From positions 35,447-99,446 of the forward strand of contig JAKSYS010000166.1 of the NCBI GenBank assembly GCA_022925895.1: 64,000 nt of DNA, read 5' to 3'. Under the pieces are notes generated by a model. It saw only the letters and a list, made by a program, of their open reading frames with translations, did not search any database and was not told the origin of the DNA. The position numbers and the translations under genes were made by a program. This document shows positions 10,801 through 59,763 of this stretch, piece after piece. Each line of letters opens with the position of its first letter. Position 1 is the first letter of the stretch. This stretch comes from Fragilaria crotonensis (lineage: Eukaryota > Bacillariophyta > Fragilariophyceae > Fragilariales > Fragilariaceae).

Positions 10801-10879
10801 CGATTTTTCCACAACTACGCCCGATCTGGACGCTCAATACAATACAAAAAGCGATTCAGAGGGAGGCGGAATCAAATGA
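7853..10879 (+). pseudogene. LINE ORF1 protein (two in-frame TGA)
   Basis: One frame runs from the ATG at 7853 (context CACCACCATGAC) to TGA at 10877-10879, about 1,008 codons, broken by TGA at 8228-8230 and 10595-10597. The longest uninterrupted part is 8339-10597. The middle (about 8700-9800) has a folded-looking region (TYRLTFRWSPNGDF, LFPADDCFFYRWES) without a motif I can name. The C-terminal quarter (about 10080-10380) is a likely coiled coil (RRLNELESLFRQQQQETAEH, LDLNIRVSKLMDVIDRM), as in many ORF1 proteins. The rest is Ser/Thr/Pro-rich. The final stop overlaps the ORF2 start as ATGA, suggesting reinitiation-coupled translation. RNA-binding chaperone function is inferred from position only. 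Confidence 0.7.
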
Positions 10880-23233: not shown

Positions 23234-23569
23234 GAGATTTTCCAGTCTTTAGGCAGACATCGCATGTTTTTTCCAGTCTTTAGGCATGACCGTCATTCAA
23301 GGCATGCTTAGTTTATATCGTATACACCGTTGTATTATTTATAAGCACCGAGCATGGCATGCACGATTTCACGCATTGCATGCCCTGAAATCAATTCTGT
23401 ACTACGTACCAGTATCGTATTCTCTGTTTTCAACAATGTATGCTGCTATGTTCATACCCTACAGTGCAATGTGTAAGACATGCTGCACATTTTCGTAGGC
23501 GAGCGATCTCCTACTAGCTACAGTAGTGATACTACTACCGGTAGTACTATACCACTAGCACCACTACTG

Positions 23570-23760
23570 TACTGGTCCCACTACCAGTACCAGTACCACT
23601 ACCACTACCACTACCACTACCACTACCACTACCACTACCAGTACAAGTACCAGTATCAGTACCACCACCACTACTGCACAAGTGCTACTGCTAAACCAGT
23701 ACCACTGCCACTACCAGTCACAGTACCACTACCACAACAGCCGCTCCACTAACACTACAA
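23570..23760 (+). repeat. CCACTA/CCAGTA microsatellite
   Basis: An imperfect hexanucleotide run (TACCACTACCACTACCAC...) in the left sub-terminal region. Its inverse (AGTGGTAGTGGTAATGGTAG...) occurs at 26675-26830. Long open frames here are compositional artefacts. Confidence 0.75.
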
Positions 23761-24389
23761 ATACCACTACCAGAACAATCAACCCCGCAGCTTCTTTTCC
23801 AGGGAACTCGTCTATAATTCATGTCGGCACAATGTGTACCTTGCTGTGTTGCTATTTGACAATGTCAACAAGTCCACACTCCAAGTCTCTGTTGTAAGAT
23901 TCAGGATTTTTGAAATGGATTCACTCAAAAAGGTTGTGTCACAATTCATGCGACATTCTTTACTTCATACTGGAGACTTCAAGCTAGTAGCCATTGGATA
24001 AATTTCAACAAATCTTTGAGTAGATCACTGCATCTTAAAACAAGCAGTTGAGATCCAATTTCATGGCAATTGGTCAGGCATGATATCATTATGATGTCTG
24101 TGGTACACTTGTTGACAAAGATATTTGTTCTGAGGCTCCAGAAGATGCAAATCCTCAACAGTCTTGGCAGTGAAGAGACCGCACATTCCAGATACTGTGA
24201 ACCTGCTGATGTGATGCATGGTATTGACCACCCTCTTTGTATTGGATTCATGCTAGATCACTTGACGGTGTTTTGGCACAAGTGATTGTAGGTTTTTTGG
24301 CTTGGAGCAACAGTCACTCCAATCAAGCAAACTAAGTGGTGACACAATGTGGGTTATTGTCTTGCAGCACATATCTCAGATTTGCCTTC

Positions 24390-25100
24390 TGCCACAAAAT
24401 ACACCAGCAAGGCAACCACCACTTTCCTAGCCAAAATTGCAAAAGGAGAGGAAGATGCTACACAAGAAATGGTGCTCCTTACCCGCATGGAAGGAGAAGA
24501 AGAAAGTTTTGAGTGCAACAATGATTCAGCAGGTGCATCCATTGACGCGTATAGGAGACAAAATGGAAAATATTCCAGGTTTAACAACAACAACAACAAC
24601 TTGCTGTGCACCTCCCACAACATTGCCACACCCCTCCAGCAATGTAGGCAAATTGACAAGAGAAGTAACAAAAATTAATGATTTGATGCCATTCAGACAT
24701 AGCAATTGTATTGCAGAGAAGATGGCATCGGCACCAAACATGGAGCTCCTCAAAGGAAAGAAGCACCCATTGCTGCTCCTGCTGTTTCTACTGGAAAGTG
24801 AGAAATGCCGAGTACCGGTAGAATGAAAGTTGGTAAAGGTAAAACTGTGGAAAGGGGCTTGACCCATCTTTCTCACAAGCACCAGCTGCTGGCTGCTGTG
24901 ACAGCTACAACAGCAGCAAAGAAGAAGGCAGCTAAGTGAAAGAAGAAGGTTGGTGCATCATCTGACAAGCAAAATGTGCTATTGGAGGAATTAAAGTCCA
25001 ATACATGAAAGTAGGAACAAAGATGGATGCTTATCTAAGTGACAACACTGATGATGAAGACTACGTTGCCAAGGTACGCAAAACTGTAGACGTTTAATTC
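24390..25100 (+). pseudogene. Decayed coding remnant, unidentified
   Basis: Plus-strand fragments in several frames have protein-like composition (TFLAKIAKGEEDATQEMVLL at about 24420-24480; Lys/Ala-rich TTAAKKKAAK at about 24905-24935; MDAYLSDNTDDEDYVAKVRK near 25023-25080). They are interrupted by stops and frameshifts. A transposase N-terminus is possible given the element around it, but no motif proves this. Confidence 0.3.
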
Positions 25101-25906
25101 AAGATACTATGAAAACAAGCCTATCAGCAAGTTGCGGTTGTCATTCTCTCTACGCACAAAACTTGTCTACAAATGGAGGTTCACAAGACAGAGAATAAGA
25201 TTTCCATGGATGTAACTGAGGCAGTATTTTGAGTGTTGTAATCATATAAGAACAAGTTGAGCCTGCATCTTGCAGGAGAAAAGCTCAGTCTGAAGAAGTT
25301 GGGAACCACTGCTATTTTATTATTGCAATTACTGTGGATGTTGTTGAAATCACAAGTTCTTGAAGGTTTTACCTGGTGATTGCTCTGTGGACTCAAATAA
25401 TAGTGACATTGCATTCTTTTCAAAGTTTCAATATCCATGTTAGCAAAAATTTTGAGAAGACAGTTTTGAGAGAACTTGTTTGATCACACAATTTGACCAA
25501 CAAGGATCATAGAGTTGCACACAAAATGTGATGTCCATAGGATCAGAACTCAAGAATTGGAAGATTGTTTAGCTTCTAATTATGCTGTCGCCCGCTATTG
25601 TAGGGTTCAATACAAAGGACCTGCAGCACACTCCTTTAATCATACCAACTTAAATGATCATGGAGTTGAGGTGGACGTGGCTGCTGAAGTTGAAGTGGAT
25701 GTGGCTGCTGAAGTTGAGGAGGAGAGTCCTATTGAAGTTCCAATAGTTTTAATGTTGAAGATGCATCAAATTTTTGCGCGCAGGGTTTTGGTGTGGATGA
25801 TGATAACAAACCTACCCCAGGATGAGGACAACATTGAAGACTGTGATTTTTCTTTGGCTGGGGTGAGATGACTCTAGATGAAAGGAGGAAAGCCGCTTTG
25901 AGCTGA

Positions 25907-26125
25907 TCCAAACATCTCAAATTCAATATTGATGTTCCTCCTCCCTTGAAGCATCCATCCCACTCTGTCAATCAGTTGATTGATGCACTCAATAGTCACA
26001 CACAGGCTTGCTCCAGTCCTGGGTGGGTGAAGTGTCTTGACAAGAGCGTGTCTGTTTGGACGAACCAATGGATATGCCTTGGATGGATGTTTGTTCCAAG
26101 AAAACCCCACCCAATGTTTGCTTAA
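25907..26125 (+). pseudogene. PiggyBac-like transposase relic
   Basis: An open stretch without its own start, between TGA at 25904 and TAA at 26123, reads CLDKSVSVWTNQWICLGWMF then VPRKPHPMF (26033-26119). This matches the pattern around the first catalytic Asp in PiggyBac-type transposases (DESMS.W..., MF.PRKP.P.G). The Glu after Asp has become Lys and the sequence stops soon after, so it is dead. PiggyBac elements normally duplicate TTAA, which does not fit the A-rich TSD here. The relic may therefore be an older nested insertion. Confidence 0.5.
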
Positions 26126-27221
26126 CTCCATTCCAGGACCAATGTTACTCACCATTTCACATCATACAGCACTCTTATGGATACGTAGACACAACAACAC
26201 TGCATTTTGCTTAATTGATGCCAGCACCATAAGCATCACCAACTTCAGCAGCAAGAAACGGTATTGATGCACTCTTCACAACTAGCTACCTTTTGATTCC
26301 CTAAGAATTCAGTTCAATCTGCTATAATGTGCGCTCCAATGAATCATATGCCAAGTCAATTCCATCTTCAGTTACTCTTTTAGTCTCTGAAATGACAAAC
26401 AATCAGTATTGTCATCAGTATTTGTCCTTCTAAAGAATGTAGGACAATCTTTAGCATTCACAGTCAATAGGAAACGACCATCACTATAGTTTTGCCGCTA
26501 TTTACGGACCCCAAAATCAGGGCAATGTTGCCAATGAGTGCCCAAAAGACTTGTAACTTGTTGACATTGTCAAATTGCAGCACAGCAAGTTACACAGTGT
26601 GCCAACATGGATTACAGAGACATGAATTATACATGAGTCCCCAGGAAGGGAAGCCACAGGAGGGGTTGGGTTGTAGTGGAAGTGGTAGTGGTAATGGTAG
26701 CGTTACTGTTACTGTTAGTGATACTGTTAATGGCAGTGGTAATGTTTATGGTAGTGGTACTGTTAATGGTAGTGGTACTGTTAACAGTACAAAGCGGTAC
26801 TGTTAATGGTTTTGCCAGTGGTACTAGTACTGGAAAGTAGTAGCACATGCACAGTAATCTGGTATTGGTACTGCTACAGTAGAGGTAGTTGTACAGTACT
26901 GGTACTGGAGTACTAGTATCGGTGCTAGTAGCTGTAGAAGTATACTGCTACCGTTAGTAGTCACGCTACTGTAGCTAGTACTGGTATGGTAAGATCGGAC
27001 ACCTATGTACAAAAATGTGCGGCATGTCGTACTGTACATTCATTGTTGTATAACCAACAGTTGATTTCAGGGCATGCCATGCGTGATATCATGCATGTCA
27101 TGCTCGGTGTTTATAAATATTAAACCAATGAATACGATATAAATTAAGAATGACCTGAATGACGGTCATGCCTAAAGACTGGAAAAAACATGCGATGTCT
27201 GCCTAAAGACTGGAAAATCTC

Positions 27222-27231
27222 AAAAAAAAAC
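27222..27231. repeat. Target-site duplication (A9C), right copy
   Basis: Second copy of AAAAAAAAAC, directly after the right inverted repeat ending GGAAAATCTC. Confidence 0.6.
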
Positions 27232-27334
27232 GAAGGTTGGTTCGCTCGATTTGTACTAAAGATGTATGTTATTAATGTATGAAGATAAAAGAGTAATATG
27301 CATTTTATGACGTCTGACATACGTCATGTATGGG

Positions 27335-27365
27335 TCCGATTAGGTTTCACCAATTTGACGTCAGC
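27335..27365 (+). repeat. Left terminal inverted repeat of the composite element
   Basis: A 31-bp repeat containing the palindrome TGACGTCA near its inner end. It matches the complement of 39551-39581 without mismatch. Confidence 0.85.
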
Positions 27366-27830
27366 ATTTTTTAGCACTTTAGTTGTGGAATTTAACTTGC
27401 ACGGAATCTTTCTCTTTGACTTTATCACCGCCCTCTTTTCAAACCAACTCTTGTGCAAAACTACGTTCTAGATAAGGAACATAAATCTGCTCCACATTTG
27501 TTTGAATAGAAATAAAAATGATCGTGTCTAGATGTGTATAAAACATGGTACCAGTAGTGGATTTGAGTTTACTCGCACAAAACTCATCATTTTGATATTT
27601 TACGACCACGATGGTATGGCACTTTGTCTCCCTGTCATTATTGTTTCTCTTGTTGTTCTTGCTCTCCTTGCTGCTTTTGTTTCTCTTGTTGCCCTTGTTC
27701 TGTTTTCGCTCTTGTTTGCTCTCTATCTGTTGTCATTTTGCTTGCATTACTATAGCAACCACCTACCGATTAATTTGTTGCCAACCCCATGTTTCGGTCT
27801 CTTTAGGATCATCCACAACAAGAAGTACCA
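27366..27830. other. Left sub-terminal region of the composite element
   Basis: AT-rich sequence followed by a TTG/CTT-rich Leu-coding low-complexity stretch (about 27610-27740). I see no convincing gene. It may be the 5' region of the transposase gene. Confidence 0.35.
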
Positions 27831-30800
27831 TTGATGCAGGATCCCCATGCTGTGGACCAGACTCTATCTGCTCTCAAGGCTATGTCATGGACTGCTTCTT
27901 TGCCTTTCAAAGGTCATTTTTGTCATGCAACCGATGATTTCAATGCATCATTGGAAACGGAGTACGACCTCTTTCAGTACACTACCTCCATGTACAAGGG
28001 TTCCAAGCATATTATTCGGTTCAGTCCATCTCTTTATCCCATCAATGGTGGATTTGAAAGGATTCAGGAGGCCATAGTCTTATCACTGACTTACTCCAAG
28101 CTGCCAAATCTGTTGGGAATTGTGCCCTTGTTTCCAATGGTTATGGTTTGCGTTCCCCAACCAATGTCACAGATGTACTACTGACTGACCAACGCGTATT
28201 GAAATGCAGTAATTTCCGCCAGTATTCATCAGAAGAAGGAGGAATGTCCTGCACACGAACCAAAGTACTGGAACCGATTCTTATCGTGTTACCACCTACA
28301 CTGGTGATAAGAAGAATGCCCGTGGGTGCAAGAGTTCTGGCATCGGATTGAAACGTCGCAATTCAACTCTACGTGGTAACTCCTGCACTTGTCGTGTCAA
28401 ATTCACACTCGAATTGACCATAATAGCTTTTTCCTTGTTTGCGGAATTGGAAACAATCAGCACACTGGCCATCCTCCTCTTCTTTCCAATGAAATAAGGA
28501 ATCGTAAACGCTTTCTTGACATTACAACCCTGGAAACTGTTGCTGCAATGAGTGTTGCCAACATCCAGCCTGCCCAAGCGGCTCTGTTTACTAAAACCCG
28601 TACGGGTCAGATTTTTACTCGTGGTCAGATGGCATATGTGCAAGGATTTACAAAAATGGCAAAAGACTTCATGGCTTCCCCAAATGTTCATGCTACCACA
28701 ACAGCATCGGAGTCTTCACCCTGTGAGAATATGTTGAGTTACTTACAAAAAAGTGGTGCCTCGTATGTCTGTCTGTATCATCATGGCAAATCAAAAGAAC
28801 TACGTGGTAACAGTGTAAAGGCTGCACGTACTGAAGCCATTCCTCATGATTTATCAGGTGAACTAACCAGCCTTTCTGTTATCCCAACTGATGATGACAC
28901 TGATGACACTTCACCTATTCACGAGAAGCCAGTACCTCTGGAGGTGGCAGAGACATCCACTTTTAAGAAATATGCTTTGGAAAGCAGACTTGCGGTTGGT
29001 GCAAGGGAAGACCAGGATATACTCATTGCCTGTTGTTGGGTTTTACCAGAAGGCAGGCGCCTGTTCCACGCTTTTCCTGAAGTTGTATGCGTTGACGGCA
29101 CTCATGAGACGAACAATGAAAGCAGACCATTGCTGACACTCTCTGTGAAAGATTCAAATGGAAAGGTGACTGTGGTTGTTAGGTGCATTGCCCCGAATGA
29201 ACGATCTTGGTTCTTCCGTTGGCTATTCCAAGAAGCCATTCCTGTTCTTCTTGGTGCACAATCACTACATGCTGTGAAACTTATCATGACTGACGGTGAT
29301 TCCCAAGAAATGACACAAGTTGACTATGCCATCTCCACACATTTTGTCAATGCAGTACGTACTCGATGTGGGTGGCACCTTGTTGATCAAGGCTGGCGAC
29401 GAAATTGTAAAGGCTTGGGTTATCGGAGAGGCAAGGATGATGCCGCCAAGAGGCAGGTAAGAGTAATAAAAACCTGGATCTACAGCTGGATGCGCCGAGG
29501 GATACTTTTCCAAGACGAGTACGAAATGTGAGTACACCTACATGTTTATTCTGTGTGTTATCTGTGATACCATTTTTCTAAAAGAATCGTCAACATCAAA
29601 GAAGTTACGCCCTTTTACATATGTACTTGAAATCAGACACTATTAAGGCAATTTTTGGGGAGGACGGTGGAGAAAAGATATTGCACTTTATCCGCAATTA
29701 CATAATTCCACAAGAGCAGAGTTATTGCTTTTATCTGAGGAAGGGGGTGAGACACTTCGAGACCAACACAAATTCTGGGCACGAAGGTACAAATAATGCT
29801 ATCAAAGCTGGTCCTTCCTGTGTGCTTCCACAGCACGGTGTTGACAAATCTGTCAAAATTCAAGTTGACACCGATTCCAACAAATTTGACCTATACCAAC
29901 GATATATGGCTAGTGCCCTGTTTGGAAGAGCAACCTGGAGTAACTCTCCCACCGTCAATGATGTCACCCTTCCTGCAGAGTTCATGTTGAAATTCGCTCT
30001 TGATCAATGCGAGCTATGCTTCTTGGAGAGCAAGCCCTTTCAAATGGCTTGTTGTTCGGTCAGTTGACCGTGATGTCCATTCTTTGATTCCATGCTTCCA
30101 CAGAGTGTACACTGTCACCTCACAAGACTTTGACAACAGGGTTTGTCTGATGTGTGACTGCAACTACTACGAATGCAATGGTGTCATCTGCCCACACATG
30201 ATGCATGTGAAGAAGTATTATGCAAGCAATCCAAACATCAGTCACCACGACATTTCAGTACGTTGGTGGAAATCATATATTTATTTCTCAATGAAGAAGG
30301 AGAGTGATTGCTCACTAACTGAGAAAGAGATAAAGCAGAAGCTGGAATCAATACGTGAGAATGATTGCAAAGGCCCAAACTTTATTCCAAAGAATGACGA
30401 TCATACTTTCTCTCCATTCCATCGTGTCTACAAGTGTGGGAAGAATTCAAATGAGCAATTCAGAAATGCCACTGAAAGTACCATTGACTCCCTTTTCAAA
30501 AACCCTCAAAACTGGACAGTGTCGTAAACTACACCAGGGATGAGGTTGAGATTGCCCTGAAGAATGCCAAAAATACTGTTCCCGTATCAATGTCGCAAGA
30601 GATCCACTTGCCTGAGGAACCACTCATCGACGCTGGTCATGAAACTGAGCACACGAATACTCATCTTGACGACAATGACGACATCCTCATGGAATCTACG
30701 AGTTTAGAAACTGACTGCATTGATTTTGGATCACGTGCTCTTCACCATGAAGACGTATCCGAATTGGAACGTTACAATGCGTACGACAGCATTATGCCAA

Positions 30801-31003
30801 GAGCAAAGGAACTAGTTAGTCTTGTTGATGCCTCAAAAAGCCCACAAGAGAGAGGTCTTCTTGTTGAGGAGGCACTCGACAAGATTATCTTCACCGAGAA
30901 AGCCAACATGGCTTCTGAGAAACCACCACCCAAAGGGTCCCTAGTTTCGGGGTGTCCTGTTGGCAAGGTGTGCAAAACATATGTCTCATCATGGAGTTTT
31001 TAA
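27831..31003 (+). pseudogene. Mutator-like (MULE) transposase with SWIM finger, several frame breaks
   Basis: DNA cut-and-paste transposase. An N-terminal DNA-binding-like part (SNFRQYSSEEGG, SCTCRVKFTLE) is followed by the DDE core in 28389-29531: EVVCVDGTHETNNE (first Asp), LIMTDGDSQEMTQ (second Asp), CGWHLVDQGW. Frame 29621-30067 holds HFETNTNSGHEGTNNAIKAG, with the likely catalytic Glu. A one-base shift near 30030-30050 leads into the SWIM finger (CDCNYYECNGVICPHMMHV, about 30157-30213). A further shift near 30500 opens an acidic tail to 31003. A GTGAGT at 29529 may be an intron donor. The key acidic residues are kept, so the breaks could be sequencing indels or recent decay. Confidence 0.8.
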
Positions 31004-31077
31004 AAGTAGTACATTTAGAATTAATAACAATGTTGACTTAGACTTTCGTTCTTGTTCGACATCATGACTAGGATGGG

Positions 31078-32110
31078 GACTATTTGGTGATCGAAATTCG
31101 ATCTTCAAATAGTCATCACAGTACGAGTATCACCAGTACAGTACGAAGGTGACTATTTGGTGATCGAAATTCGATCTTCAAATAGTCGTCACAGTACGAG
31201 TATCACCAGTACAGTACAATGGCGACTATTTGGTGATCGAAATTCGATCTTCAAATAGTCGTCACAGTACGAGTATCACCAGTACAGTACAATGGCGACT
31301 ATTTGGTGATCGAAATTCGATCTTCAAATAGTCATCACAGTACGAGTACCACCAGTACAGTACGACGGTGACTATTTGGTGATCGAAATTCGATCTTCAA
31401 ATAGTCGTCACAGTACGAGTATCACCAGTACAGTACAATGGCGACTATTTGGTGATCGAAATTCGATCTTCAAATAGTCGTCACAGTACGAGTATCACCA
31501 GTACAGTACAATGGCGACTATTTGGTGATCGTAATTCGATCTTCAAATAGTCGTCACAGTACGAGTATCACCAGTACAGTACAATGGCGACTATTTGGTG
31601 ATCGAAATTCGATCTTCAAATAGTCATCACAGTACGAGTACCACCAGTACAGTACGGTGACTATTTGGTGATCGAAATTCGATCTTCAAATAGTCGTCAC
31701 AGTACGAGTATCACCAGTACAGTACAATGGCGACTATTTGGTGATCGAAATTCGATCTTCAAATAGTCGTCACAGTACGAGTATCACCAGTACAGTACAA
31801 TGGCGACTATTTGGTGATCGAAATTCGATCTTCAAATAGTCGTCACAGTACGAGTATCACCAGTACAGTACAATGGCGACTATTTGGTGATCGAAATTCG
31901 ATCTTCAAATAGTCGTCACAGTACGAGTATCACCAGTACAGTACGAAGGTGACTATTTGGTGATCGAAATTCGATCTTCAAATAGTCATCACAGTACGAG
32001 TACCACCAGTACAGTACAATGGCGACTATTTGGTGATCGAAATTCGATCTTCAAATAGTCGTCACAGTACGAGTATCACCAGTACAGTACGACGGCGACT
32101 ATTTGGTATT
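31078..32110. repeat. Hairpin repeat array 1: about 14 copies of a 73-bp unit
   Basis: Each unit holds a near-perfect hairpin (GACTATTTG ... ATCGAAATTCGAT ... CAAATAGTC, 37 bp) plus a 36-bp linker of the type TCACAGTACGAGTATCACC. Unit starts at 31078, 31151, 31224 and 31297 give an exact 73-base period, and one unit is 3 bases short. Copies are almost identical, implying recent amplification or homogenisation. The array lies between the converging transposase and oxygenase-like genes. It is in inverse orientation to arrays 2 and 3. Confidence 0.92.
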
Positions 32111-33129
32111 ATTGTTTCCTCCAACAACTGCTGTCTTCAGGTATAACGACACACAAAACACATCTTTCTCTTGATATTGCAATGTGCGGGATGTCAAACA
32201 GTGCTGATACAATGGATTGAAAAGTAACATATCTCGGCCTCAGTGCCACGGCAACCTTGTTCTGCAAATGCAAAGTAGTTCGTTACGTCGGCATCCAATC
32301 GGTATTTATCAAACCGACCCGGTTGCAATCCATGTTGCGAAATAATGGTTGTCAAGGAATAGAAAAAATCCTCATCGGTATGCGAATTCAAACAATAGTT
32401 TTTGCCACAGGCAAGACTACCCCAAATTGGTTCAGATGGCATACCTACCATACTTGGCCAATCGGCAAACCATTGGGCACTACGGAGTCCTCGAAGATCA
32501 TTCCCTGGAATGAATCCTTTTGCAACTTCATGACACCTCTTCATTAAGTCACGGATTTGTGTCTTGCTCCAGTCACTTAATGTTTTCGGCCAAGACTCGA
32601 TAATACCAGTTGAACCACGGTTTGGCTTTAACCCAACAGTGGTGTATTTGCCATTATCTTCCGCAACAGGTACTCGTTTAATTCCACGCACTTCTGCTTT
32701 GGATTCTGCATCCTCAAGTGCATGAAGTGCCTCGATGGTTTGGTTAACCCTTGTAAGTTTTTCAACAACATACGGACGTGGGATCAAAGTGAATACGTTA
32801 TCCCCACTCGGTAAAATCAAACGGGCACCAGACATAGTGTCAATGACTTTAAGATCATTGATTGCAAACAGCATGTGCGCATCACCTATGCATTTGCGAA
32901 GTCTCGTTGAGTTTTCCATATCGGCTCCACTATAGAATAATGGTTTACAACTGTTCTGCAACAGTGTTTTGCCCAGTGAATGCTCATGGGACGACGAAAC
33001 TTGCATCAAACTATCTAGCCTTTTCTTCTTCAAATAATTGCGCTTCTTTGCATAAACACTCTTTGGCTTGCCATTTTCTATTGCCTTCTTGTATGCTTCC
33101 TGCGTCGTGATGCTTGACTTTTCCTTGAT
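32099..33129 (-). pseudogene. 2OG-Fe(II)-oxygenase-like protein, 5' end missing, one frameshift
   Basis: Open from about 33129 (TQEAYKKAIENGKPKSVYAK) through an uninterrupted stretch 33033-32194. It carries NSHTDEDFFYSL (His-x-Asp, the metal-binding pattern of the double-stranded beta-helix oxygenases), then DADVTNYFAFAEQG. A frame change near 32235 is needed to reach VAVALRP, DMLLFNPLYQHC (candidate second His), then LTSRT (candidate 2OG-binding Arg) and CVSLYLKTAVVGGNNNTK. The stop codon TAG (32099-32101) is supplied by the CAAATAG of hairpin array 1. Substrate is unknown. No start codon was found upstream, where the frame closes near 33130, so a 5' exon is missing or was replaced by repeats. 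Calling it an oxygenase rests on motif spacing alone. Confidence 0.5.
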
Positions 33130-33196
33130 TTATATACATGTTGAAAACCTCGTTTTCCAGTCTTGCCAATGTTCTCACTTGTGGTATCATTCTGTA
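33130..33196. other. Short spacer between oxygenase-like gene and 132-bp repeats
   Basis: No ORF or motif. It contains the upstream stop that closes the oxygenase-like frame. Confidence 0.3.
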
Positions 33197-33708
33197 CAAC
33201 CGTACTCCTCATCATGCTTTTGTGACGTCAAGGTTGGAACTGCTGTTACTGTGCCCCGAGTCACAGATAACAGTGACCTGTTTTGACGTCCTCATGATGG
33301 TTTCCTCGTTGCTACATTTGCATTCCACAACCGTACTCCTCATCATGCGTTTTGTGACGTCAAGGTTGGAACTGCTGTTACTGTGCCCCGAGTCACAGAT
33401 AACAGTGACCTGTTTTGACGTCCTCATGATGGTTTCCTAGTTGCTACATTTGCATTCCACAACCGTACTCCTCATCATGCTTTTTGTGACGTCAAGGTTG
33501 GAACTGCTGTTACTGTGCCCCGAGTCACAGATAACAGTGACCTGTTTTGACGTCCTCATGATGGTTTCCTCGTTGCTACATTTGCATTCCACAACCGTAC
33601 TCCTCATCATGCTTTTTGTGACGTCAAGGTTGGAACTGCTGTTACTGTGCCCCGAGTCACAGATAACAGTGACCTGTTTTGACGTCCTCATGATGGTTTC
33701 CAAGTTGC
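33197..33708. repeat. Four tandem copies of a 131/132-bp unit
   Basis: Units starting CAACCGTACTCCTCATCATG at about 33197, 33328, 33460 and 33592 are nearly identical. Each contains two GACGTC sites about 60 bases apart (GTGACGTCAAGG and TTTTGACGTCC). Because 132 is a multiple of three, open frames appear on both strands and are artefacts. The TGACGTCA word is shared with the inner end of the element's inverted repeat. Confidence 0.9.
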
Positions 33709-33860
33709 TTCTGCCGTTTGATAACCATTCGCAACAGCGTTGGGCAAGGGAATCGAAGGAGGAAAAATGTGATCAGAGTTTATACTTTCTGTCACGTCGC
33801 ATGTGTCAGAAGTACGTCAGTGCTCAAGGGCGACATCACTCAGAACACTCGTCAAAGAAC
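33709..33860. other. Spacer between the 132-bp and 73-bp arrays
   Basis: About 150 bases with an open plus-strand frame (QQRWARESKEEKCDQSLYF) of unknown meaning. Nothing identifiable. Confidence 0.3.
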
Positions 33861-34795
33861 AAAATTCGTACACCAAATAGTCGTCATCGTACCGTCATAC
33901 TGTTACTTGTCCATTCGTGACTATTTGAAGATCAAAATTCGTACACCAAATAGTCGTCATCGTACTGTCATACTGTTACTTGTCCATTCGTGACTATTTG
34001 AAGATCGAAATTCGTACACCAAATAGTCGTCATCGTACTGACATACTGTTACTTGTCCATTCGTGACTATTTGAAGATCGAAATTCGTACACCAAATAGT
34101 CGTCATCGTACTGACATACTGTTACTTGTCCATTCGAGACTATTTGAAGATCGAAATTCGTACACCAAATAGTCGTCTTCGTACCGTCATACTGTTACTT
34201 GTCCATTCGTGACTATTTGAAGATCAAAATTCGTACACCAAATAGTCGTCATCGTACCGTCATACTGTTACTTGTCCATTCGCGACTATTTGAAGATCGA
34301 AATTCGTACACCAAATAGTCGTCATCGTACTGACATACTGTTACTTGTCCATTCGTGACTATTTGAAGATCAAAATTCGTACACCAAATAGTCGTCTTCG
34401 TACTGACATACTGTTACTTGTCCATTCGCGACTATTTGAAGATCGAAATTGTACACAAATAGTCGTCATCGTACTGACATACTGTTACTTGTCCATTCGT
34501 GACTATTTGAAGATCGAAATTCACACCAAATAGTCGTCATCGTACTGACATACTGTTACTTGTCCATTCGTGACTATTTGAAGATCAAAATTCGTACACC
34601 AAATAGTCGTCTTCGTACCGTCATACTGTTACTTGTCCATTCGCGACTATTTGAAGATCGAAATTGTACACCAAATAGTCGTCTTCGTACCGTCATACTG
34701 TTACTTGTCCATTCGTGACTATTTGAAGATCGAAATTACGGGTTACTTCGTCTAAGAAGACTATTTGAAGATCAGAATCTGTACACAATTAGTGC
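33861..34795. repeat. Hairpin repeat array 2: about 12 copies of a 73-bp unit
   Basis: The unit consists of GACTATTTGAAGATCGAAAT, then TCGTACACCAAATAGTC, then a linker of the type GTACTGACATACTGTTACTT. The hairpin arms are the reverse complement of those in array 1, so this array is inverted relative to it. Units vary by single bases (GTCATC/GTCTTC, CGTGAC/CGCGAC) and a few are 1-3 bases short. A decayed last unit lies at 34760-34795. It is immediately upstream of the GNAT/C48-like gene. Confidence 0.9.
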
Positions 34796-34872
34796 AATCG
34801 ACACTGTGAGCATCTGCACCTGATTTGTATATGTTGAAGGTCGTCAAGTCTTAAACAACTCATCTCCTCAGT

Positions 34873-36923
34873 ATGCCCCGAAGACAAAGAGCGCGCCGAA
34901 GGCAACCAGTACGCATGACGATGATCCATTTGACGGATGTGAACCCCAGTAATGAAGACGATGATTGAGATGATGAAATGGCACCACCGCATTCCACGTG
35001 ATCAATTACCAACGTTCCTACAGGAATATCGTATTCTTCACTTTGTTGGAAGAGAAGATGAATACAATGCGAGTGATACTGTTTATGAATTGTATCATGT
35101 TATATTCGACGACCATTCAGATCGGAAGTCACTGTCATCTTGCCTTGGTAAGGGCGAGACACTTAGTATATGGGAAAAGGAGAAACCCACTGCTATATGC
35201 GCTATAACGTTTGTACAACGAGAGAACGCTGTTTTGGTTCTTTTTTTGGCAACAAAGGTTGACTATCAGGCCAACGGAATGGCAACTTTTTTGCTTTCGA
35301 TTATGCATCAAGTTGTAAGGTGTAGGGTGGGTGTTGATGAAGTAAATGTTTATTTGAAAGCAAATCCGACCGCGAACAAAGTGGCATGGGGTTATTATTC
35401 AAGACGCAACTTTGCCGAAATGGCTGAAGGGACTGAAGCATTTCCTAAAGTTTTGAGAGACTGTTTTGTCAATGAGGTTGATGATAGTCCACTCAAGGAC
35501 TATCTCGGATTCAGCAACGATTTGAAGTGGTTGACGATTTGCCTTACACGTGAATATTTTGCCTTCCCACAAGAATCCAGAAACCAGATAGTATTGAAAA
35601 GGTTGTTCAACAATCCCAATGACAACACCATTGATTGTCCATCCGTGTATGCCTTCTTCCCGGAAACTTAACATACGAAGAGGCAACATTTTGTACACCA
35701 ACTTATGATTGTTACTCGGGTGAATTTTGGGATGACAAGGCCTTCCATCCGAAGAACTCGATAATGGAAAAATACCTATTCCAAGGTCCAAGTGCTCGTC
35801 TGACTTGGATAGATCGTTGCCTTACGCGCAAAGGTGACGCTCTTTCTCCAGACTTTGTGGACATTGCTCTGGGATGGCTGCAGCGGTATTGTAAAGCTGA
35901 AATTTGGTCGACCCTGACCATCATTCCTTGTAAGATCATGACTGAGGTGTCAACAATGGAGAGCCTTTTTACATCCTTCATTGAAGGACGGAACGTTGCA
36001 TCTTCGGTTCGCGACCTAAAAACCGATACAGAGAGAAGACAGTTTGTAAACCACATCTTTCATTACGAGATTGACCAAAAGAGGTTTATGGAGGCAACAA
36101 TTCTGGTGGTGGAGTTCATTATACAACACAAGGATCTCCTCACGAAGCCGTTTATTGTCATTCCTGCACAAGAGGATGAAGATTGTTCATGGACTGTTTT
36201 CGTAGCGGTGAATTGTGGAAAACTGGGAACAATGATAACGATACAAAATGTGGATATTTTTGTTTGATCCAACTGGAAAACGTCGCCGTTCTGACCCACC
36301 GCCAATTTGCCGGTTCTTCCTCAAATTGGTGCACTTCATACTCAGTCCTGAGAATGATCCAAATGCAAAAGCACGAAAACCAAAAGAAGAAAAGAAAGGG
36401 AAAGCTCACCATGGAAAGACAAGGTTGTTGCACCATGGTTTTTCAACATGCATTCGTTTTACGTCGGTTTCACACGGCAAAGCGTTAATTTTGGTTGTGT
36501 CGTCACTGACAAGAACAATGAGACATGTGACATCGAGAAGGGCGCTTCCGACCGTTGAGTTTACCGCCAGATTACATTCTAATTCAGGAAACGTCAAAGG
36601 ATGTGGCGCAAAGTGGTTTAAAATCATTGATTTTCATCCGCGATTTTTGTGTCATGGTGCACGACGTCACATTCGACACGAGTGGGAATGTGAAAGGTGA
36701 CATCACTTTTGACAGGAATGACAATGTCAAGGGCATGGGCAGGAACATTCCCACATCAACACGAAAATTTGCTCACTATTTGCATGACGTGTACGTGAGC
36801 TTGTTTCAACTGATTGACAGAATAGCAAGCAGCAACTTTGGGTCGGTTCGAGAAGAAGCTCATGAGTACAAAAATATCTTCGTCCCAGCAAGGGATAGAA
36901 CGGTCGCTTTCGTTGGAAACTAA
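34873..36923 (+). pseudogene. GNAT-like and C48 (Ulp1)-like protein, frame-broken
   Basis: A basic leader (MPRRQRARRRQPVRMTMIH, 34873) may be the true N-terminus in another frame. Frame 34952-35671 has an acetyltransferase-like pattern: ICAITFVQRENAVLVLFLAT, then VDYQANGMATFLLSIMHQ, resembling the beta4/alpha3 acetyl-CoA loop, and AWGYYSRRNF. One base shift near 35660 continues as TYEEATFCTPTYDCYSGEFW, FVDIALGWLQRYC, FIVIPAQEDEDCSWTVFVAV, a layout like a Ulp1/C48 cysteine protease with Ser where the catalytic His is expected. Later frames (36248-36700 and 36555-36923) probably hold the remainder, and the nucleophile cannot be fixed. Ulp1-like proteases are known cargo of Mutator-like elements. 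The GNAT call is tentative. Confidence 0.45.
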
Positions 36924-36965
36924 CGATGCGGACCACGACATGCGTTTCCTGATTTAGCCAAGATA

Positions 36966-37352
36966 TTGCAGTGGCAACCTTTGTCGAAAGAAAGAGTGTT
37001 GCTTGGCAGGGAAACAGATTTGTGCCAGATGAATAATGATGATGTAGCGAAGCGGTTGCGAAAGACTTCGCGAAAGCCTCGACAAACAAAGAAAAAAGGG
37101 AAGACGGATAGTGGTGAAGAGCAGTCGGGTGGTCTAGGCCAGCGAAAGCAGGATGATCCATCGTTGACGAAGTCGCCAGCACGAAAGGGTGAAGCAGAGG
37201 CAGTACAGGAACAAGATCATACATCACCAGAAAAGATTCAAGACACCGAAAAGATGCCTGATGGAGCACATACGACCACGGCGCTCTCTCGCAGGGAAGT
37301 GAATTTGTGCCATTGTCTATACAGCATATTGCTACATTTATTTCAAGTTTAA
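36966..37352 (+). CDS. Lys-rich hypothetical segment in the composite element
   Basis: A 128-codon plus-strand frame, very basic (RKTSRKPRQTKKKGKTDSGE), of low complexity and with no recognised domain. It most likely is a linker within the protein that starts at 34.9 kb or the one that continues at 37.4 kb, broken by indels. Confidence 0.3.
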   Translation: MQWQPLSKERVLLGRETDLCQMNNDDVAKRLRKTSRKPRQTKKKGKTDSGEEQSGGLGQRKQDDPSLTKSPARKGEAEAVQEQDHTSPEKIQDTEKMPDGAHTTTALSRREVNLCHCLYSILLHLFQV

Positions 37353-37359
37353 AGAAGGA

Positions 37360-38516
37360 CTTCCGAATATGCTGCATCAGAAGATGAGAAGAAGAATCTG
37401 TGTTGGCAAATCCTTGCTCTTTCACACGAGAAGTCTCCATTGCCATTTGTCGAAAATGCGTTGAAGTTTATACGCGATAATTTTGAAAAGGAAAATGAAA
37501 GTGTTTCGATAATCGCCAAACCTGGGAAAAAGGATGTACTGTGTGGGAAGGGGCACCGCAAATGCATTCCGTACCTTGATCGCACATTGGACTTCAAGAA
37601 AATGCACTTGTCAGCAGCTAATCAGGCAGAAAAATATGAGGTGCAGCGTACCATTTACACAACTCTAAAAAGGAGGGATTTCGTTTCCTCGAGATGACAG
37701 AAAAAAAGGGTGGAAGGAAAAAACATACGATGGTGGAATGGCGTATATTAGATCGCGAATGAAACGTGTGTGTAACGAAAAGAAGGGGAGGGCATGACGC
37801 CGTCAATAAATGAATTGGAGGCCGGACCAGGTCCATTTGAAAGTACATCTCTACCGCCAAATGGTATTGTAGTACGTAAACGCGATGAACCAAAGGGACA
37901 TCCACCAAACATGGCTTTCCGTCGGATAATCCGAAGAGCTGCAGATGCCACGTTTGAAAGTCGAACAGAAAGCGCTAAGGACAATATTGCAGGTGAAGTG
38001 CTAGAGGAGATGCGGAAAAAAGGTTACATCTTTGTCAATAAAGAGGAAAACGTTTGGAAAGGTGTCAACACAGAAAAAGTAAGGAAAGAGGTTCGGGATC
38101 GTCTAAGGAAATCAGTGTACTTTGGGAAACAAAGTACGGTGACGGGAAAGAGGAAAGCTGGTGACGACAATGATGCTGGCATTGAATGCAAGCAACCTTC
38201 AAAACAGCGGATGACAGGAAGTTTGAAAGCTGGTGACGAGGATGATGCTTGTATTGAATGCAATAAGCCTTCAAAGAGCGGATGACAGGAAGTAAGAAAG
38301 CTGGTGACGAGGATGATGCTTGTATTGAATGCAATAAGCCTTCAAAGCACTCGTGTCGGAAATGTAAGAAGCATGTATGTTCCATGTGTTGCAATGAAAA
38401 GAAAGCTCGAAAACACTTGGTGGTGCAACGTGTGTTTCAATAGACAAAGTGTTTGGAAGCAAACATTAATTCGGGACGGCAATTACAGTACTTCGGATGA
38501 AGAATGCAAGAAATGA
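37360..38516 (+). pseudogene. Tandem DUF6824-like domains with Cys-rich tail, frame-broken
   Basis: The first copy (about 37500-37790) reads KKDVLCGKGHRKCIPYLDRT, then YEVQRTIYTTLKR, and needs two one-base shifts to give GFRFLEM and YIRSRMKRV. The second copy, 37794-38285, is intact: VVRKRDEPKGHPPNMAFRRI, SAKDNIAGEVLEEMRKKGYI, ENVWKGVNTEKVRKEVRDRL. Both match the DUF6824 pattern common in diatom proteins (V..G.G...HP.N..FR, K..IA..V...., W..V). The tail has CIECNKPSK repeats, and in a shifted frame CRKCKKHVCSMC followed by WWCNVCF, a zinc-binding-like cluster. DUF6824 function is unknown. DNA binding is often presumed but not shown here. Confidence 0.6.
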
Positions 38517-38548
38517 GTTCATCGTAGTCGTACATGCTGTATGTAGTA

Positions 38549-39230
38549 GCCTATTTGAAGGTCAAAATTTGTACACCAAATAGTCGTCTTCTTACTGTCA
38601 TAGTGTTACTTGTTCATTCGTGACTATTTGAAGAACAAAATTCGTACACCAAATAGTCGTCATCGTACTGTCATAGTGTTACTTGTTCATTCGTGACTAT
38701 TTGAAGATCGAAATCGTACACCATATAGTCGTCATCGTACTGTCATACTGTTACTTGTTCATTCGTGACTATTTGAAGATCGAAATTCGTACACCAAATA
38801 GTCGTCTTCTTACTGTCATACTGTTACTTGTCCATTCGCGACTATTTGAAGATCGAAATTTGTACACCAAATAGTCGCATCGTACTGACATACTGTTACT
38901 TGTTCATTCGTGACTATTTGAAGATCGAAATTCGTACACCAAATAGTCGTCTTCTTACTGGCATACTGTTACTTGTCCATTCGCGACTATTTGAAGATCG
39001 AAATTTGTACACCAAATAGTCGCATCGTACTGACATACTGTTACTTGTTCATTCGTGACTATTTGAAGATCGAAATTCGTACACCAAATAGTCGTCTTCT
39101 TACTGGCATACTGTTACTTGTTCATTCGTGACTATTTGAAGATCGAAATTCGTACACAAAATAGTCGTCATCATACTGACACACTGTTACTTGTCCATTC
39201 GAGACTATTTGAAGATCGAAATTCGTACAG
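38549..39230. repeat. Hairpin repeat array 3: about 9-10 copies of a 73-bp unit
   Basis: Same unit and orientation as array 2 (GACTATTTGAAGATCGAAAT, then CACCAAATAGTC), with linker variants GTCTTCTTACTG and CTTGTTCATTCG. It ends about 320 bases inside the right inverted repeat. The first unit is degenerate. Confidence 0.9.
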
Positions 39231-39550
39231 AAAGAAAGTTCTGTTGGTGTTGATTAAGAAGAAAAGTGTACTTGTATTCAAGGAGATTTGCAACCCTACT
39301 AGGTTGTAATCGAATACAAAGTAATGTAAGTTCGAGTGATTCAAAACAAGGGAAACACATGAATCACTGATAGAAGGAGATATGTAGCAGTTATCTTTCT
39401 GGCATGACAAAGGGTTGACATGCGCGTTAGGAAAAGCGCCGACAGAAGTCAACAACAAAGATTCCGTGTTTTGTCAGCCATTCAAATTTCCGATGTCTTC
39501 AAAAATCTTCTACAGGAGGACTCACTGTAGTTTATTACTGTGACGTGGGT
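39231..39550. other. Right sub-terminal region of the composite element
   Basis: No convincing ORF. This is AT-rich sequence between hairpin array 3 and the inverted repeat. Confidence 0.35.
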
Positions 39551-39581
39551 GCTGACGTCAAATTGGTGAAACCTAATCGGA
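39551..39581 (-). repeat. Right terminal inverted repeat of the composite element
   Basis: Perfect inverted copy of 27335-27365. The next outer bases (39582-39584) continue the match with the solo copy at 18691-18707 but not with the left repeat. Confidence 0.85.
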
Positions 39582-40100
39582 TCTAGAGCACTCAATTCTC
39601 TCAAAGAGTTGATGTATGACAAATGCGTACAAAATTCAGATTTTTGACACGATTCACAAGCGCCACATGCTTTTGGCGCCGTTAGATTTAGAAACGTAAA
39701 TGATTACTCATCAGTCATCAGTACATAATACACTACCGGCCGGCGTGGGCGGAAACGCGAACAATTGAACTTGACGTACTCCAGTATCCGGACTCCGGAG
39801 TACAGTACTGGAGTATGTAATACAGTAATACAGTACGTCACGCACTGCATAGTACTCCAGTATTTGCAATGTACAGTACGAAACTTGACTGCATTTACAC
39901 ACGAAGGTCAGACAGATCATCACTATCTCCATTCATCGTAGAAGAGTCGCGAGCAGGAAGGTCCGGCCCAAGCACGTTTCAGCCGTTAAGTTTGTGACCG
40001 TCGTCAGATATGCGTCAGGGATTTTCCAAATTGTATGTATTGCGAGATTTGTAGCTCGATTGGTCGATGCAAACGAGCCGGCAAGGTTTTCTCCTCGTAA
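39582..40100. other. Intergenic spacer
   Basis: Contains an AGTACT/CCGGAGTAC-rich patch at about 39775-39865. No gene is supportable. Confidence 0.4.
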
Positions 40101-40106
40101 GTAAAA

Positions 40107-40392
40107 AATTGAAGACCGTCAGTAAAATATTGCTGACCGACAGTAAATATTTACTGACCGTCAGCAAAAAATTGCTGACCGTCAGTAAAAAATTGCTGAC
40201 CGTCAGTAAATCTGATTTGTCTTTAAGAAGCTTTCATGGACACATGGTATATTCTTACGTCAGTAATTTCTTCTGACCGTCAGTAATTTCTTTCTGACCG
40301 TCAGCAATTTTTTACTGACCGTCAGCAAATTTTTACTGACCGTAAGTAAATTTTTACTGACCGTCAGCAATTTTTCACTGACCGTCAGTAAT
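40107..40392. repeat. Foldback array of CTGACCGTCAG motifs
   Basis: About 11 copies of the palindromic core CTGACCGTCAG (with T/C and GACAG or GTAAG variants), spaced about 20-22 bases by A/T runs, form two arms (about 40107-40212 and 40255-40392) around a non-repeated centre (40213-40254). AAAAATTG spacers predominate on the left and AATTTTT on the right, so the arms are inverted relative to each other. It resembles a MITE or a cruciform-forming repeat. No coding potential. Confidence 0.75.
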
Positions 40393-40538
40393 TATACTCT
40401 TTAAGCCATTCACATGATAATAGAGCCAGCCTATGCTTCACGTTGCGTCACCACGACTCAGAATGGAAGCGATTTTCACCTCAAGGGTATCACGTGTTTT
40501 CATCTTATTCACGATTCCCTAAGGTATGGCTGGACCTT

Positions 40539-41848
40539 CCAGGCCTCCTTATTTTCGTGTAACTCCGAAAATAACGAAAATAGCTAAATTCGGGAGTTTT
40601 GAAAACTTATTTTCGGATTAAATTCGGGAATTACCTAAATGGCATTGTTTACTCACCATTAAGTGCCCAAAAGTACACCCTTTTGTTCCATTGATGGACT
40701 ACTTACTAAATAGAAAGGCTCATGAAGGTTCCTGTGTTCTTGTGTGCACTGTAAAAGTGATTCATTGGGGCAGGTGATGTTGGAAATGCTTCACTCTCTC
40801 CTAGTGTTGATCTCTTTGCAAAATGATGATGGCAAAGCCAGATTCCACCAAGCTCATACTGGGCAACACACTAGCAGTGAGCCAGAGGTCAAACAGTCTC
40901 TGAAGAAAGCAACTTGTGCATTCTATTGCATCCAATCTTGTCACTGCCTTTCAAGCTACTACACACTACTTCCCTTCATGATCACCATACTAGGCTATTC
41001 TGGCTTAGATGTCCAAAGTCGCGGCATCAATGCTCTCAATTTTTCCTCTCAGATGTTGCCAAGAGGCCAATATTCTGATGTTGTAATGCTCTTATGATAT
41101 CACTTGGTGCCATGAAACACAGATCTTAGTTCTTGTTGAAGAACCATGCAGGAATCTCATCATTGATTTCCCAGCATTCTCTGCAACTCCATTGCTCCAC
41201 AACACCCATCCACAATTGAAGGAAAATGAGATGTCATTGACTTCAGACCAGCACCATGGTATGGTGATCTTGATGCACTGCTTCCACTTGCTTCATAGCT
41301 ACTTTAATTCAACATGCATCTGCTGCACTCTTCTTGCTTATTCTACGATTTCAGTAAAATTCTTGCTTCAATCATCCTCTTAAATCAATGCAGATGTTTG
41401 CAAAGATGGCTCACAATGCTATTTGAATTGTTCAATGGTAGATCTGTTAAGATTCTATTATGTTGTGTCCACTTTCATGTCCAGTTTGCTGTCAAGAGTA
41501 CCAGTATTGCCAAAGCCGACGGTTGTACGCAACAAACATACCACAGCCAACGCAGCTTTTGACACAAACACACACTCACAAATCTGCACAGGACACTTCA
41601 TATTTTAATTTTTATTGAATTCCAATGCACCTATGGACTTCTTGGGTGTGATGGGGAGATGGTTGTAACTTCAGAATTGAAATTCCGACAGTTTTTCACC
41701 ATCCCTTCGACCGTCAAAGTTCGACCATTTTTAACACGGCGTTGTACGAGAGAAAAGTGCCACGTCACCGTTATTTTCGGGAGTTTCTCAGACCTTAATT
41801 TCGGGAAAATTCCCGAAATTAATAAAACCCGAAAATAATGAGGCCTGG
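40539..41848. mobile_element. TIR element, 1.3 kb, probably non-autonomous
   Basis: The ends CCAGGCCTC(C/A)TTATTTTCG face each other at 40539-40557 and 41830-41848. Just inside both ends are repeated TTCGGGA(G/A)TTT words and a strong palindrome (TTTCGGGAAAATTCCCGAAA, near 41799-41818). The interior has no convincing ORF; short frames at 40744-41097 and 41192-41562 look compositional. No clear target-site duplication was found, so superfamily is unassigned. Confidence 0.6.
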
Positions 41849-44715: not shown

Positions 44716-45824
44716 CTCCCTACAAAGAATACAACAGAGGGGCCGGTGGATTTCAGACGGTACGTTTTCCCGGTAGTGCTGGCAGTACCAAAGACTCGTA
44801 CGACGTCAAGGTACATCATTGGAAGTACCAGGTACAATTACTCCGACATGATACAGGATACGTAGATGATAGTGGTATGGCTGATAGCACATTCCTACTA
44901 CAATTTTACAGTGCGCCAAGTACGTTCTTGTTGACGTCACTGTTGCGTTTAACTAACCTTCATGTCGATTAAAATGGATCAGGATGTGGTAGAGTGTTCG
45001 ACTTACATACGCTTATATACATGTAGGATGTGTTCCTAATGATAGGTCCAATGATTCGGCGGTGGGCCTTCGAGCTCCAAGCGTGGATACACCACACCTG
45101 CTTTGACCGTATTCGTGGTACATCGACGTACAAGTACCTGGTACCAGGTACCCGTCTCCATTTATGATGTGATACCACGCTGCGTTATCAGAGAATCGCA
45201 CGCCTGTTACATATTGTTTTGCTGTAGAGACATACCGGCGACTAATTGCCCTTCATTAAGATTTCCTGGACTCTCTGAGATAACTCTTGGGAGCCGCAGC
45301 CCAATGACGATGCTTCAACGACCACTCAATTTACGTATAACGCCTACGTGGCGAGCAAGATTCCCCCCAGCACAACAGCAGCGCATCATCACCCTCGCGG
45401 CTGCAGCGTGCGCGTAACGACTCTGCGGCAACAAGTGTTTACTCACACGATTTGCCTAGGAATGTAGGGCGCAACAATATGCGCGGAAACCAAGGATTGA
45501 CTTTTCCCCGCCCCACAAGGATTTGGTTTTTATCAGTGGACGATGTGAGTGTTGGAGCGCTTCTGCATCAACTTCGATGTCGATCGCAATGCCGCATATG
45601 GTGTCGTGATTCGGAGGTCGCATTATGTGCTGTGGCCCGACATGAGCTTCTGGATAATGTGACTGGCCTTGCAGGAAACTGATAAGACCGATGCCGTGGT
45701 ACATTCTCATTTTGTTGTTTGCTGTCGAATTCCTACCTCTGGCATTTTGAATTGTCGCACGCGTCGCCATATCTTCTCATACATATTTTTGATTCTTGCT
45801 CTCTCTATTGTCAGTCAGTTCAAC
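44716..45824. other. Divergent intergenic region
   Basis: Holds the promoters of two divergent genes. GTAC-rich palindromic patches (GGTACCAGGTACC near 45139-45150; others about 44775-44850) are present. A frame upstream of BTA1 from 45669 is open into the gene and hydrophobic (FLILALSIVSQFN), but the conserved protein starts at 45825. Confidence 0.4.
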
Positions 45825-51899: not shown

Positions 51900-52803
51900 T
51901 GATAGATTCTGCGTGCGAGCGCGGAGTGGAGGCCAGACCATGGTTAAATCGGGCGCACGCCAGACCGGGGTCGCAGGCAGGTGGTGACGTCACGGTGACG
52001 GTATCGGTCGCTACAGTACGAACGTTGACCGGTGCTACGGTTTCAGGACTACTGGATGCTACGCTAGCGGCAGAGGAAGCGGGAGTGCTAGTAGCAGACG
52101 CGACGGTATACGCGTGGGAGTCTACTGGACGGGTATACTGAGCTACGGTATGACTAGGCGTAACTACAGTACATGTAGACGTAGACACAGTGCTAGTAGG
52201 CGAAGCAACTGTGCTAGTATCTGTAGGTACGATGCAAGTAGATGGTGCTACGTTGCGCGTAGGTGACACTACAGTATGTGGACGTGGGTGGAGTCCTACG
52301 GTGACGTCGGTAGCCAAGTGGGTACTAGTACACTGGCTATCGCTACAGGGGGACTGAATCGTGACGACGGCGGGTAAAAAGTCGTCATGGTCAGTTACGC
52401 TGCTACGAAAATTGTACATTGTTAAAAATCGGGGGCCGGCTAAATATATTTACAGTGGTAGACAAATTTGTGAGAAATTGTTGATCATCAAATGATGATC
52501 AACTTCTTTTGATGAGTGTTCTTCAGGAACACTCAGGATCACAAAAGAAACGGTGCACGTCTGAAGAGTGCACGTCTGAAAAGGTGTACGTCTGAAGAGG
52601 TCGTACGAGGCCGAGCGTTGGGCGAGAAAATGGTCGTTTATGCAACGAACGACATGAATTTGATCGTTGCAATTTTGGAGTGGGATATGATTCCCGTACG
52701 ACAGTAACGATACGACGTATACTGTTTACTAGCCTAATGTGAAGTGTCGTACTGAATAATGTAGATAGTAAAAATACGTAGGAGCGGTACTAAAAGTCTG
52801 TCA
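51900..52803 (-). repeat. 3' LTR of the Copia element
   Basis: 904 bp. It starts (minus strand) TGACAGACTTTTAG and ends GAATCTATCA. It contains an open frame (minus, 52419 to 51900) rich in Thr/Ser/Val (TNRNVAPS-like repeats such as STSTCTVVTPSHT) that in the 5' LTR leads into the internal region. It also has an inverted pair TTGATCATCAAATGATGATCAA near 52481-52502. Confidence 0.93.
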
Positions 52804-54270: not shown

Positions 54271-54373
54271 GTGTCTTCAAAAGGTTGAGGGATCTCAATT
54301 GGGATAGTGTTAGATTTATTTACTTTCTTGGTGTTTTCCTCTTTGTTTGAGTAGTTGTTGCTGGTACTTTGCT

Positions 54374-59740: not shown

Positions 59741-59763
59741 AGTGGTATCATAGGGACTGGGAG

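Follow-up and report, generated by a model that had tools for sequence, protein, structure and literature searches.

A 12.2-kb candidate multi-gene MULE-superfamily element with perfect 32-bp inverted ends in the diatom Fragilaria crotonensis

Ends, genes and repeat arrays of the element

We analyzed a stretch of 64,000 nucleotides from the diatom Fragilaria crotonensis (GenBank assembly GCA_022925895.1, contig JAKSYS010000166.1, positions 35,447 to 99,446 of the forward strand), hereafter the window, and describe a span of 12,247 bp within it (27335-39581) that is bounded by a pair of inverted repeats. Between these ends lie a transposase gene of the Mutator-like element (MULE) superfamily, further open reading frames (ORFs) that we refer to as cargo, and four satellite arrays. 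The ends lie as follows:

27335-27366, + strand: left terminal inverted repeat (TIR), 32 bp, contains TGACGTCA
39550-39581, - strand: right TIR, 32 bp

A preliminary description of this DNA had reported perfect inverted ends of 31 bp; the pair is indeed perfect, its length is 32 bp, and the sequences diverge immediately inward of it. When up to three mismatches were allowed, the 32-bp end was found only at these two sites in the window, and not once in 100 shuffles. Setting aside pairs whose two arms both sit in tandem arrays, the window holds three perfect inverted pairs that are 20 bp or longer and no more than 25 kb apart, one formed by the element ends and two belonging to a neighbouring element. 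First-order Markov simulation of 20 windows gave longest inverted pairs of 14-17 bp. TIRs enclosing a transposase are a feature of the MULE superfamily (although absent in non-TIR MULEs), and here they are perfect over 32 bp.

The transposase gene begins about 0.5 kb inside the left end:

27834-31003, + strand: SWIM-type MULE transposase gene, in several frames (Pfam for the core; DDE and SWIM motifs by eye)
About 29082-29384, + strand: MULE core (Pfam)
29088-29111, + strand: acidic motif CVDGTHET (by eye)
29283-29306, + strand: acidic motif IMTDGDSQ (by eye)
29774-29797, + strand: acidic motif SGHEGTNN (by eye)
30153-30197, + strand: SWIM motif CDCNYYECNGVICPH (by eye)

The ORF at 28380-29531 matched PF10551 (MULE; E 1.7e-13) and PF21056 (ZSWIM1-3 RNaseH-like; E 8e-14), both above the Pfam cut-offs, and PF10551 supplies the MULE-type DDE transposase domain that characterizes the superfamily. 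No SWIM profile matched the transposase, and the SWIM motif was recognized by eye. The MULE/SWIM transposase that had been proposed inside the ends is therefore upheld by these two profiles and this motif.

The remaining coding regions were assigned with varying support:

32099-33129, - strand: gene resembling 2-oxoglutarate (2OG) oxygenases, with one frame change near 32.23 kb (motif only)
34943-36267, + strand: GNAT-like ORF (YQANGMA at 35264-35284) that continues, after a frame change near 35.67 kb, as a possible C48-like ORF (weak profile and motif)
37518-37740, + strand: first DUF6824-like domain, spanning a frame change near 37.67 kb, end approximate (below the Pfam cut-off)
37794-38443, + strand: DUF6824 protein carrying a roughly 24-residue tandem peptide repeat and, past a frame change near 38.29 kb, a Cys-rich tail (Pfam PF20710)

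The oxygenase-like ORF (32197-33129, - strand) stops after HTDED (32362-32382), and FNPLYQHCLTSR (about 32186-32221) continues in another frame; we take the two together to be the HxD...H pattern of 2OG oxygenases. The possible 2OG oxygenase of the preliminary description thus keeps its motif, split over two frames, but the read-through protein matched no Pfam model of any kind up to E 5, and membership among TET/JBP enzymes was rejected on that result. A single-sequence structure model of the N-terminal frame, with the C-terminal piece in the other frame not included, reached a predicted local distance difference test score (pLDDT) of 32.5, too poor to use. For the protein described as GNAT/C48-like, the GNAT half retains YQANGMA, which resembles the Q/RxxGxG/A motif of GNAT enzymes, and a weak match of its ORF (34943-35671) to TIGR01575 (rimI; positions 4-120 of 132, E 0.025, 14.7 bits against a cut-off of 86.4), and its single-sequence structure model was again too poor to use (pLDDT 38.0). 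The possible C48-like ORF (35635-36267) was read by eye only, with the D and the Q-x5-C found and Ser where His is expected, and C48 had no match in Pfam, NCBIfam, PHROGs or PDB sequences. Beyond 36.25 kb, and as far as about 37.35 kb, the reading frames are ambiguous as a continuation of this ORF. The proposed DUF6824/Cys-rich protein was borne out by the PF20710 match of the ORF at 37776-38285 (E 2.2e-7, 31.7 bits against a cut-off of 27), and the domain upstream of it (E 0.0012, 19.7 bits against the same cut-off) is likely a second DUF6824 domain, judging from this lower-scoring profile match. A 71-bp repeat present in 2.7 copies in this gene corresponds to a tandem peptide repeat with CxxC motifs. 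PDB sequence searches with the element proteins gave no convincing match. The cargo may modify DNA or chromatin, the enzyme identities being taken from motifs.

The tandem repeat search recovered the four arrays noticed earlier, which occupy 3,115 of the 12,247 bp:

31069-32107, - strand: array A1, 73 bp x 14.2 (counted over 31073-32107), inverted relative to A2 and A3
33196-33709, no strand assigned: 132-bp array x 3.9, just upstream of the oxygenase gene, contains TGACGTCA four times
33855-34737, + strand: array A2, 73 bp x 12.2, in the divergent intergenic region
38551-39229, + strand: array A3, 73 bp x 9.3, same sense as A2

A1 separates the transposase and oxygenase genes, which converge on it, A2 lies between the divergent oxygenase and GNAT ORFs, and A3 is found ahead of the right end; all three are built from a common 73-bp unit. 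We compared 33 units of at least 69 bp, dropping shorter end pieces. In the palindromic half, the majority sequence of A1 was identical to those of A2/A3 at 32 of 35 columns, and in the other half at 24 of 38 (Fisher p 0.005); the units had been cut where the palindromic half begins, which biases the comparison in favour of that half. A1 is uniform (73 bp in 12 of 14 units, 95% matches), with no unit-type junction visible. The motif GACTATTTG occurs 71 times in the window, counting both strands, and 69 of these occurrences are within the 73-bp arrays. The palindrome TGACGTCA, presumably a bZIP/CRE-type site, is present six times in the element (both ends plus the four copies in the 132-bp array), against a simulated mean of 0.45 and maximum of 3; it is also present in both long terminal repeats (LTRs) of a Copia-like element in the window. 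Rfam returned no matches at the gathering score over 26900-40600.

CpG content, codon history and neighbouring elements

The observed/expected CpG ratio (CpG o/e) was 0.42-0.68 in all seven 500-bp segments of 27501-31000 and 0.70-1.99 in the 17 segments of 31001-39500, with the rise at about 31.0 kb, close to where the transposase stops and A1 starts. The border segment 27001-27500, which extends beyond the element, shows no depletion (1.02). By part, the ratio was 1.55, 1.94 and 1.73 in the arrays, 0.57 in the transposase gene and 0.33 in the neighbouring inverted-repeat element, and host stretches gave 0.93-1.00. Elsewhere in the window, 15 of 89 1-kb segments fell below 0.57 (ten in the Copia-like element, three at 3501-5500, and one each at 7001 and 40501). 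Within the arrays, the columns that vary include 4 of 14 CpG columns versus 2 of 59 others in A1, 3 of 14 versus 2 of 59 in A2, and 4 of 12 versus 8 of 61 in A3.

Codons were examined with an amino-acid-controlled measure, the share of NCG codons in the TCN, CCN, ACN and GCN boxes, from which we omitted the transposase stretch at 28.24-28.41 kb, 36.25-37.35 kb, the Cys-rich tail and positions 13768-14712 of a LINE-like (long interspersed nuclear element-like) sequence. NCG codons made up 15/221 in the transposase and 42/208 in the cargo (p 5e-5), compared with 133/712 in host ORFs (p 8e-6 against the transposase), 117/658 in the LINE-like element and 19/695 in the Copia-like element. The choice of CGN codons for Arg did not separate the halves (transposase 26/45, cargo 40/60, p 0.42). 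The cargo therefore looks host-like in NCG codons and in overall CpG, though not by every measure. That the cargo resembles the host in NCG codons and the transposase does not suggests that the cargo was probably acquired later than the origin of the transposase lineage. The step in CpG itself may reflect such a late capture, a joint of two copies, or shielding by the arrays.

The surroundings are rich in other elements. To the left lies a 3,988-bp inverted-repeat element (23234-27221) with 66-bp perfect ends inside longer inverted repeats that are imperfect (68% over 725 columns) and hold microsatellites, and with a 10-bp direct repeat at its borders, AAAAAAAAAC (A9C), of low complexity. Its CpG o/e of 0.33 becomes 0.36 when simple repeats are removed; it holds no ORF of at least 150 amino acids and is MULE-like solely by its repeat layout and the length of its target-site duplication (TSD). 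Just to the right of the 12.2-kb element, at 40096-40393, are two blocks of 21-bp repeats (for example CGTCAGTAAAAAATTGCTGAC), followed by a CpG-poor tract at 40501-41500. The Copia-like element, named by eye, spans 51900-63830 between LTRs (51900-52804 and 62931-63830) that are 98.8% alike. In the LINE-like element (8231-16631; CpG o/e 1.04), matches to endonuclease and RNase H stayed under the cut-off; it is interrupted by an in-frame stop at 13765, and its frame changes near 14.66 kb. A sigma-70 gene is also present in the window and, like DUF6824, is consistent with a diatom origin of the DNA.

Competing readings of the locus

Most likely, the locus represents either one multi-gene MULE or two copies of the same family joined as a chimera. 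With a probability of roughly 0.5, we read it as a single DNA transposon of the MULE superfamily, 12.2 kb long, which carries everything between its ends and acquired its cargo later. In such an element, the transposase, whether made from this copy or from an intact one elsewhere, would bind the inverted ends, excise the element and insert it at a new site, so that all the DNA between the ends would travel. The oxygenase-like, GNAT-like and DUF6824 ORFs would have joined after the transposase lineage arose, and the arrays would have expanded inside the element through unequal exchange around a palindromic, binding-site-like module. This reading is favoured by the perfect ends, which far exceed chance, the MULE and ZSWIM profile matches, the contrast in NCG codons between transposase and cargo, the codon-usage ranks of ten element pieces, and the published multi-gene MULEs and giant algal DNA transposons cited below.

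Several observations weigh against the single transposon. MULEs usually generate a TSD of 8-11 bp (PMC6446971; this and the other papers are cited from partial texts), and here, as the preliminary description had already remarked, none is visible: no exact direct repeat of at least 3 bp was found with both borders shifted by up to 3 bp, nor any adjoining repeat in the two 200-bp flanks. An imperfect GGGTC/GGATC repeat at the borders, judged by eye, was dismissed as chance. For the MULEs of diatoms, Table 1 of the same paper has the entry 'No TSD and not indicated', and therefore the absent TSD alone does not exclude a MULE. Moreover, one copy of the element is known; its parts are real, but one copy without an insertion scar cannot prove that they moved together. 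The use of C3|G1 is 34/176 in the transposase and 39/170 in the cargo (p 0.43), both below the 265/618 of the host, a result at odds with a sharp contrast between transposase and cargo, and the CpG step at 31.0 kb is equally compatible with two joined pieces.

The frame changes also count on this side. Seven apparent frame changes that leave no room for an intron (near 28.42, 30.04, 30.52, 32.23, 35.67, 37.67 and 38.29 kb) break up about 7 kb of element ORFs. The transposase could genuinely end at the one near 30.52 kb; additional breaks, near 28.2, 29.6 and 36.25 kb, may represent either introns or further frame changes. Three frame changes were likewise found in 9,495 bp of host ORFs, two in a DUF3419 gene and one at 21.26 kb, and therefore assembly errors likely account for part of those in the element. 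The two in the host DUF3419/methyltransferase gene (45663-47928) are apparent single-base changes, a hint of residual assembly indels. We also ranked all six frames by host codon usage, omitting stops and scoring host ORFs leave-one-out. In favour of the single transposon, the expected frame came first in 10 of 16 element pieces, among them four of the five transposase pieces, the oxygenase, the GNAT and both DUF6824 pieces, and in 9 of 9 host ORFs. Against it, the other six did not rank first (in the C48-like part, the frame with FDPTGKRR ranked fourth and the adjacent frame first), and in-frame scores were low throughout the element.

A possible, though tentative, alternative is a chimera in which the left end and the transposase come from one MULE copy and the right end and the cargo from another, brought together by recombination or deletion. 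The borders would then never have belonged to one insertion, and therefore no TSD would be found. The missing TSD, the step in CpG o/e (from 0.42-0.68 to 0.70-1.99) near the passage from the transposase to A1, and the unequal NCG codons of the two halves fit this alternative. Nevertheless, differences in capture time or methylation along a single element would yield an identical step, the uniform A1 shows no junction of unit types, C3|G1 does not separate the halves, and the border segment at the left end is not depleted in CpG. A chimera would be an ordinary case of element recombination.

It is unlikely, in our judgement, that the locus is organized around anti-silencing of the kind seen in Arabidopsis VANDAL elements and their VANC proteins. 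By this analogy, a cargo protein, of which DUF6824 is the best candidate, would bind the palindromic 73-bp units, where silencing marks would be removed or opposed by the oxygenase and the GNAT protein. The conservation of the palindromic half across inverted arrays, the concentration of GACTATTTG in the arrays, and the retention of CpG by arrays in an element whose transposase is depleted, as is the neighbouring element, are consistent with it. So is the tandem peptide repeat of the DUF6824 protein, given that VANC proteins contain tandem peptide motifs and have their targets in tandem repeats (PMC5735166). However, recent amplification by itself would leave the arrays CpG-rich, and CpG columns in the arrays vary more often than others, which is compatible with some methylation there. 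The transposase region is depleted, and therefore any shield does not extend over it. The enzymes are named from motifs, and binding and shielding are putative. A stronger version, which we consider quite improbable, would be a stramenopile MULE with its own anti-silencing kit, evolved independently of plants, in which DUF6824 binds the array palindromes and recruits the oxygenase and the acetyltransferase to keep the arrays free of marks.

Finally, a chance mosaic of unrelated genes and arrays between two remnants of a repeat would account for the single copy, the missing TSD, the abundance of other elements in the window and the unequal NCG codons, but it is very unlikely given perfect 32-bp ends that flank a transposase in the orientation of termini and are absent from the rest of the window, and given arrays of one shared unit, with A1 next to the transposase and A2 and A3 in the right half.

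Comparison with known systems

Viral contigs searched with the end 31-mer, the array module, a pattern built on the oxygenase motif and four of the proteins (transposase, oxygenase, GNAT and DUF6824) yielded nothing that could be confirmed. Genome contigs gave 57 transposase and 83 oxygenase pattern matches, none of which tblastn confirmed as a relative, and the oxygenase-like protein had no match among phages. The collections searched were viral, bacterial and archaeal, and these results therefore say little about whether eukaryotes lack relatives. In the open-licence literature searched, as far as the partial texts go, a MULE with this gene set was not found. Class II elements have been described as rare in earlier diatom genomes, and a MULE expansion has been reported in Nitzschia inconspicua (PMC8329260). 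Published precedents include MULEs with several genes and giant DNA transposons of algae that carry accessory genes (PMC6446971; PMC13317346; PMC12477816).

Among diatoms, the MULE-Diatoms group 37 (Dupeyron et al., 2019; PMC6446971) likewise has a SWIM MULE transposase and is entered as 'No TSD and not indicated', but its TIRs are 123-124 bp long and it has one ORF, in contrast to the 32-bp TIRs and several ORFs found here. The giant DNA transposons of Ectocarpus are also large stramenopile elements with accessory genes, and their transposase is often a predicted pseudogene; they belong to KDZ, EnSpm and Sola-1 and carry other accessory genes, whereas the element described here is a candidate MULE (PMC12477816). 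Fungal DNA transposons with TET/JBP genes similarly combine a DNA transposon with an oxygenase-like gene, but MULE is not among the superfamilies named in the abstract (PMC12730594), and the ORF found here matched no Pfam model up to E 5.

The plant MULEs VANDAL and Kaonashi (KIU) are likewise multi-gene, with a short motif multiplied in noncoding tandem arrays and with tandem peptide repeats in their cargo (PMC13317346; PMC5735166). VANC binds such a short motif, multiplied as noncoding tandem repeats (PMC5735166; PMC10398659), and the confinement of 69 of 71 copies of GACTATTTG to arrays matches this layout. However, VANDALs are described as non-TIR MULEs (PMC13317346; PMC5735166), whereas the TIRs here are perfect, and for their Ulp1/C48 domain the possible counterpart here is the Q-x5-C read by eye, with Ser for His and no profile match. 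If the gene set recurs between the same ends, the diatom element would allow a test of whether sequence-specific transposon anti-silencing, as in the Arabidopsis VANDALs, has more than one origin. It would then also point to a possible role for DUF6824, which a literature search under that name found in no paper.

As a MULE with a chromatin-type gene, the element would have precedents among stramenopiles, as Phytophthora MULEs with SET methyltransferase genes have been published (PMC6446971, group 16, 'SET for 14 members'; PMC12730594). Those elements carry SET, whereas the one described here carries oxygenase-like, GNAT-like and DUF6824 ORFs together with satellite arrays, and this gene set with shared palindromic arrays would be new relative to the literature searched, should it recur between the same ends.

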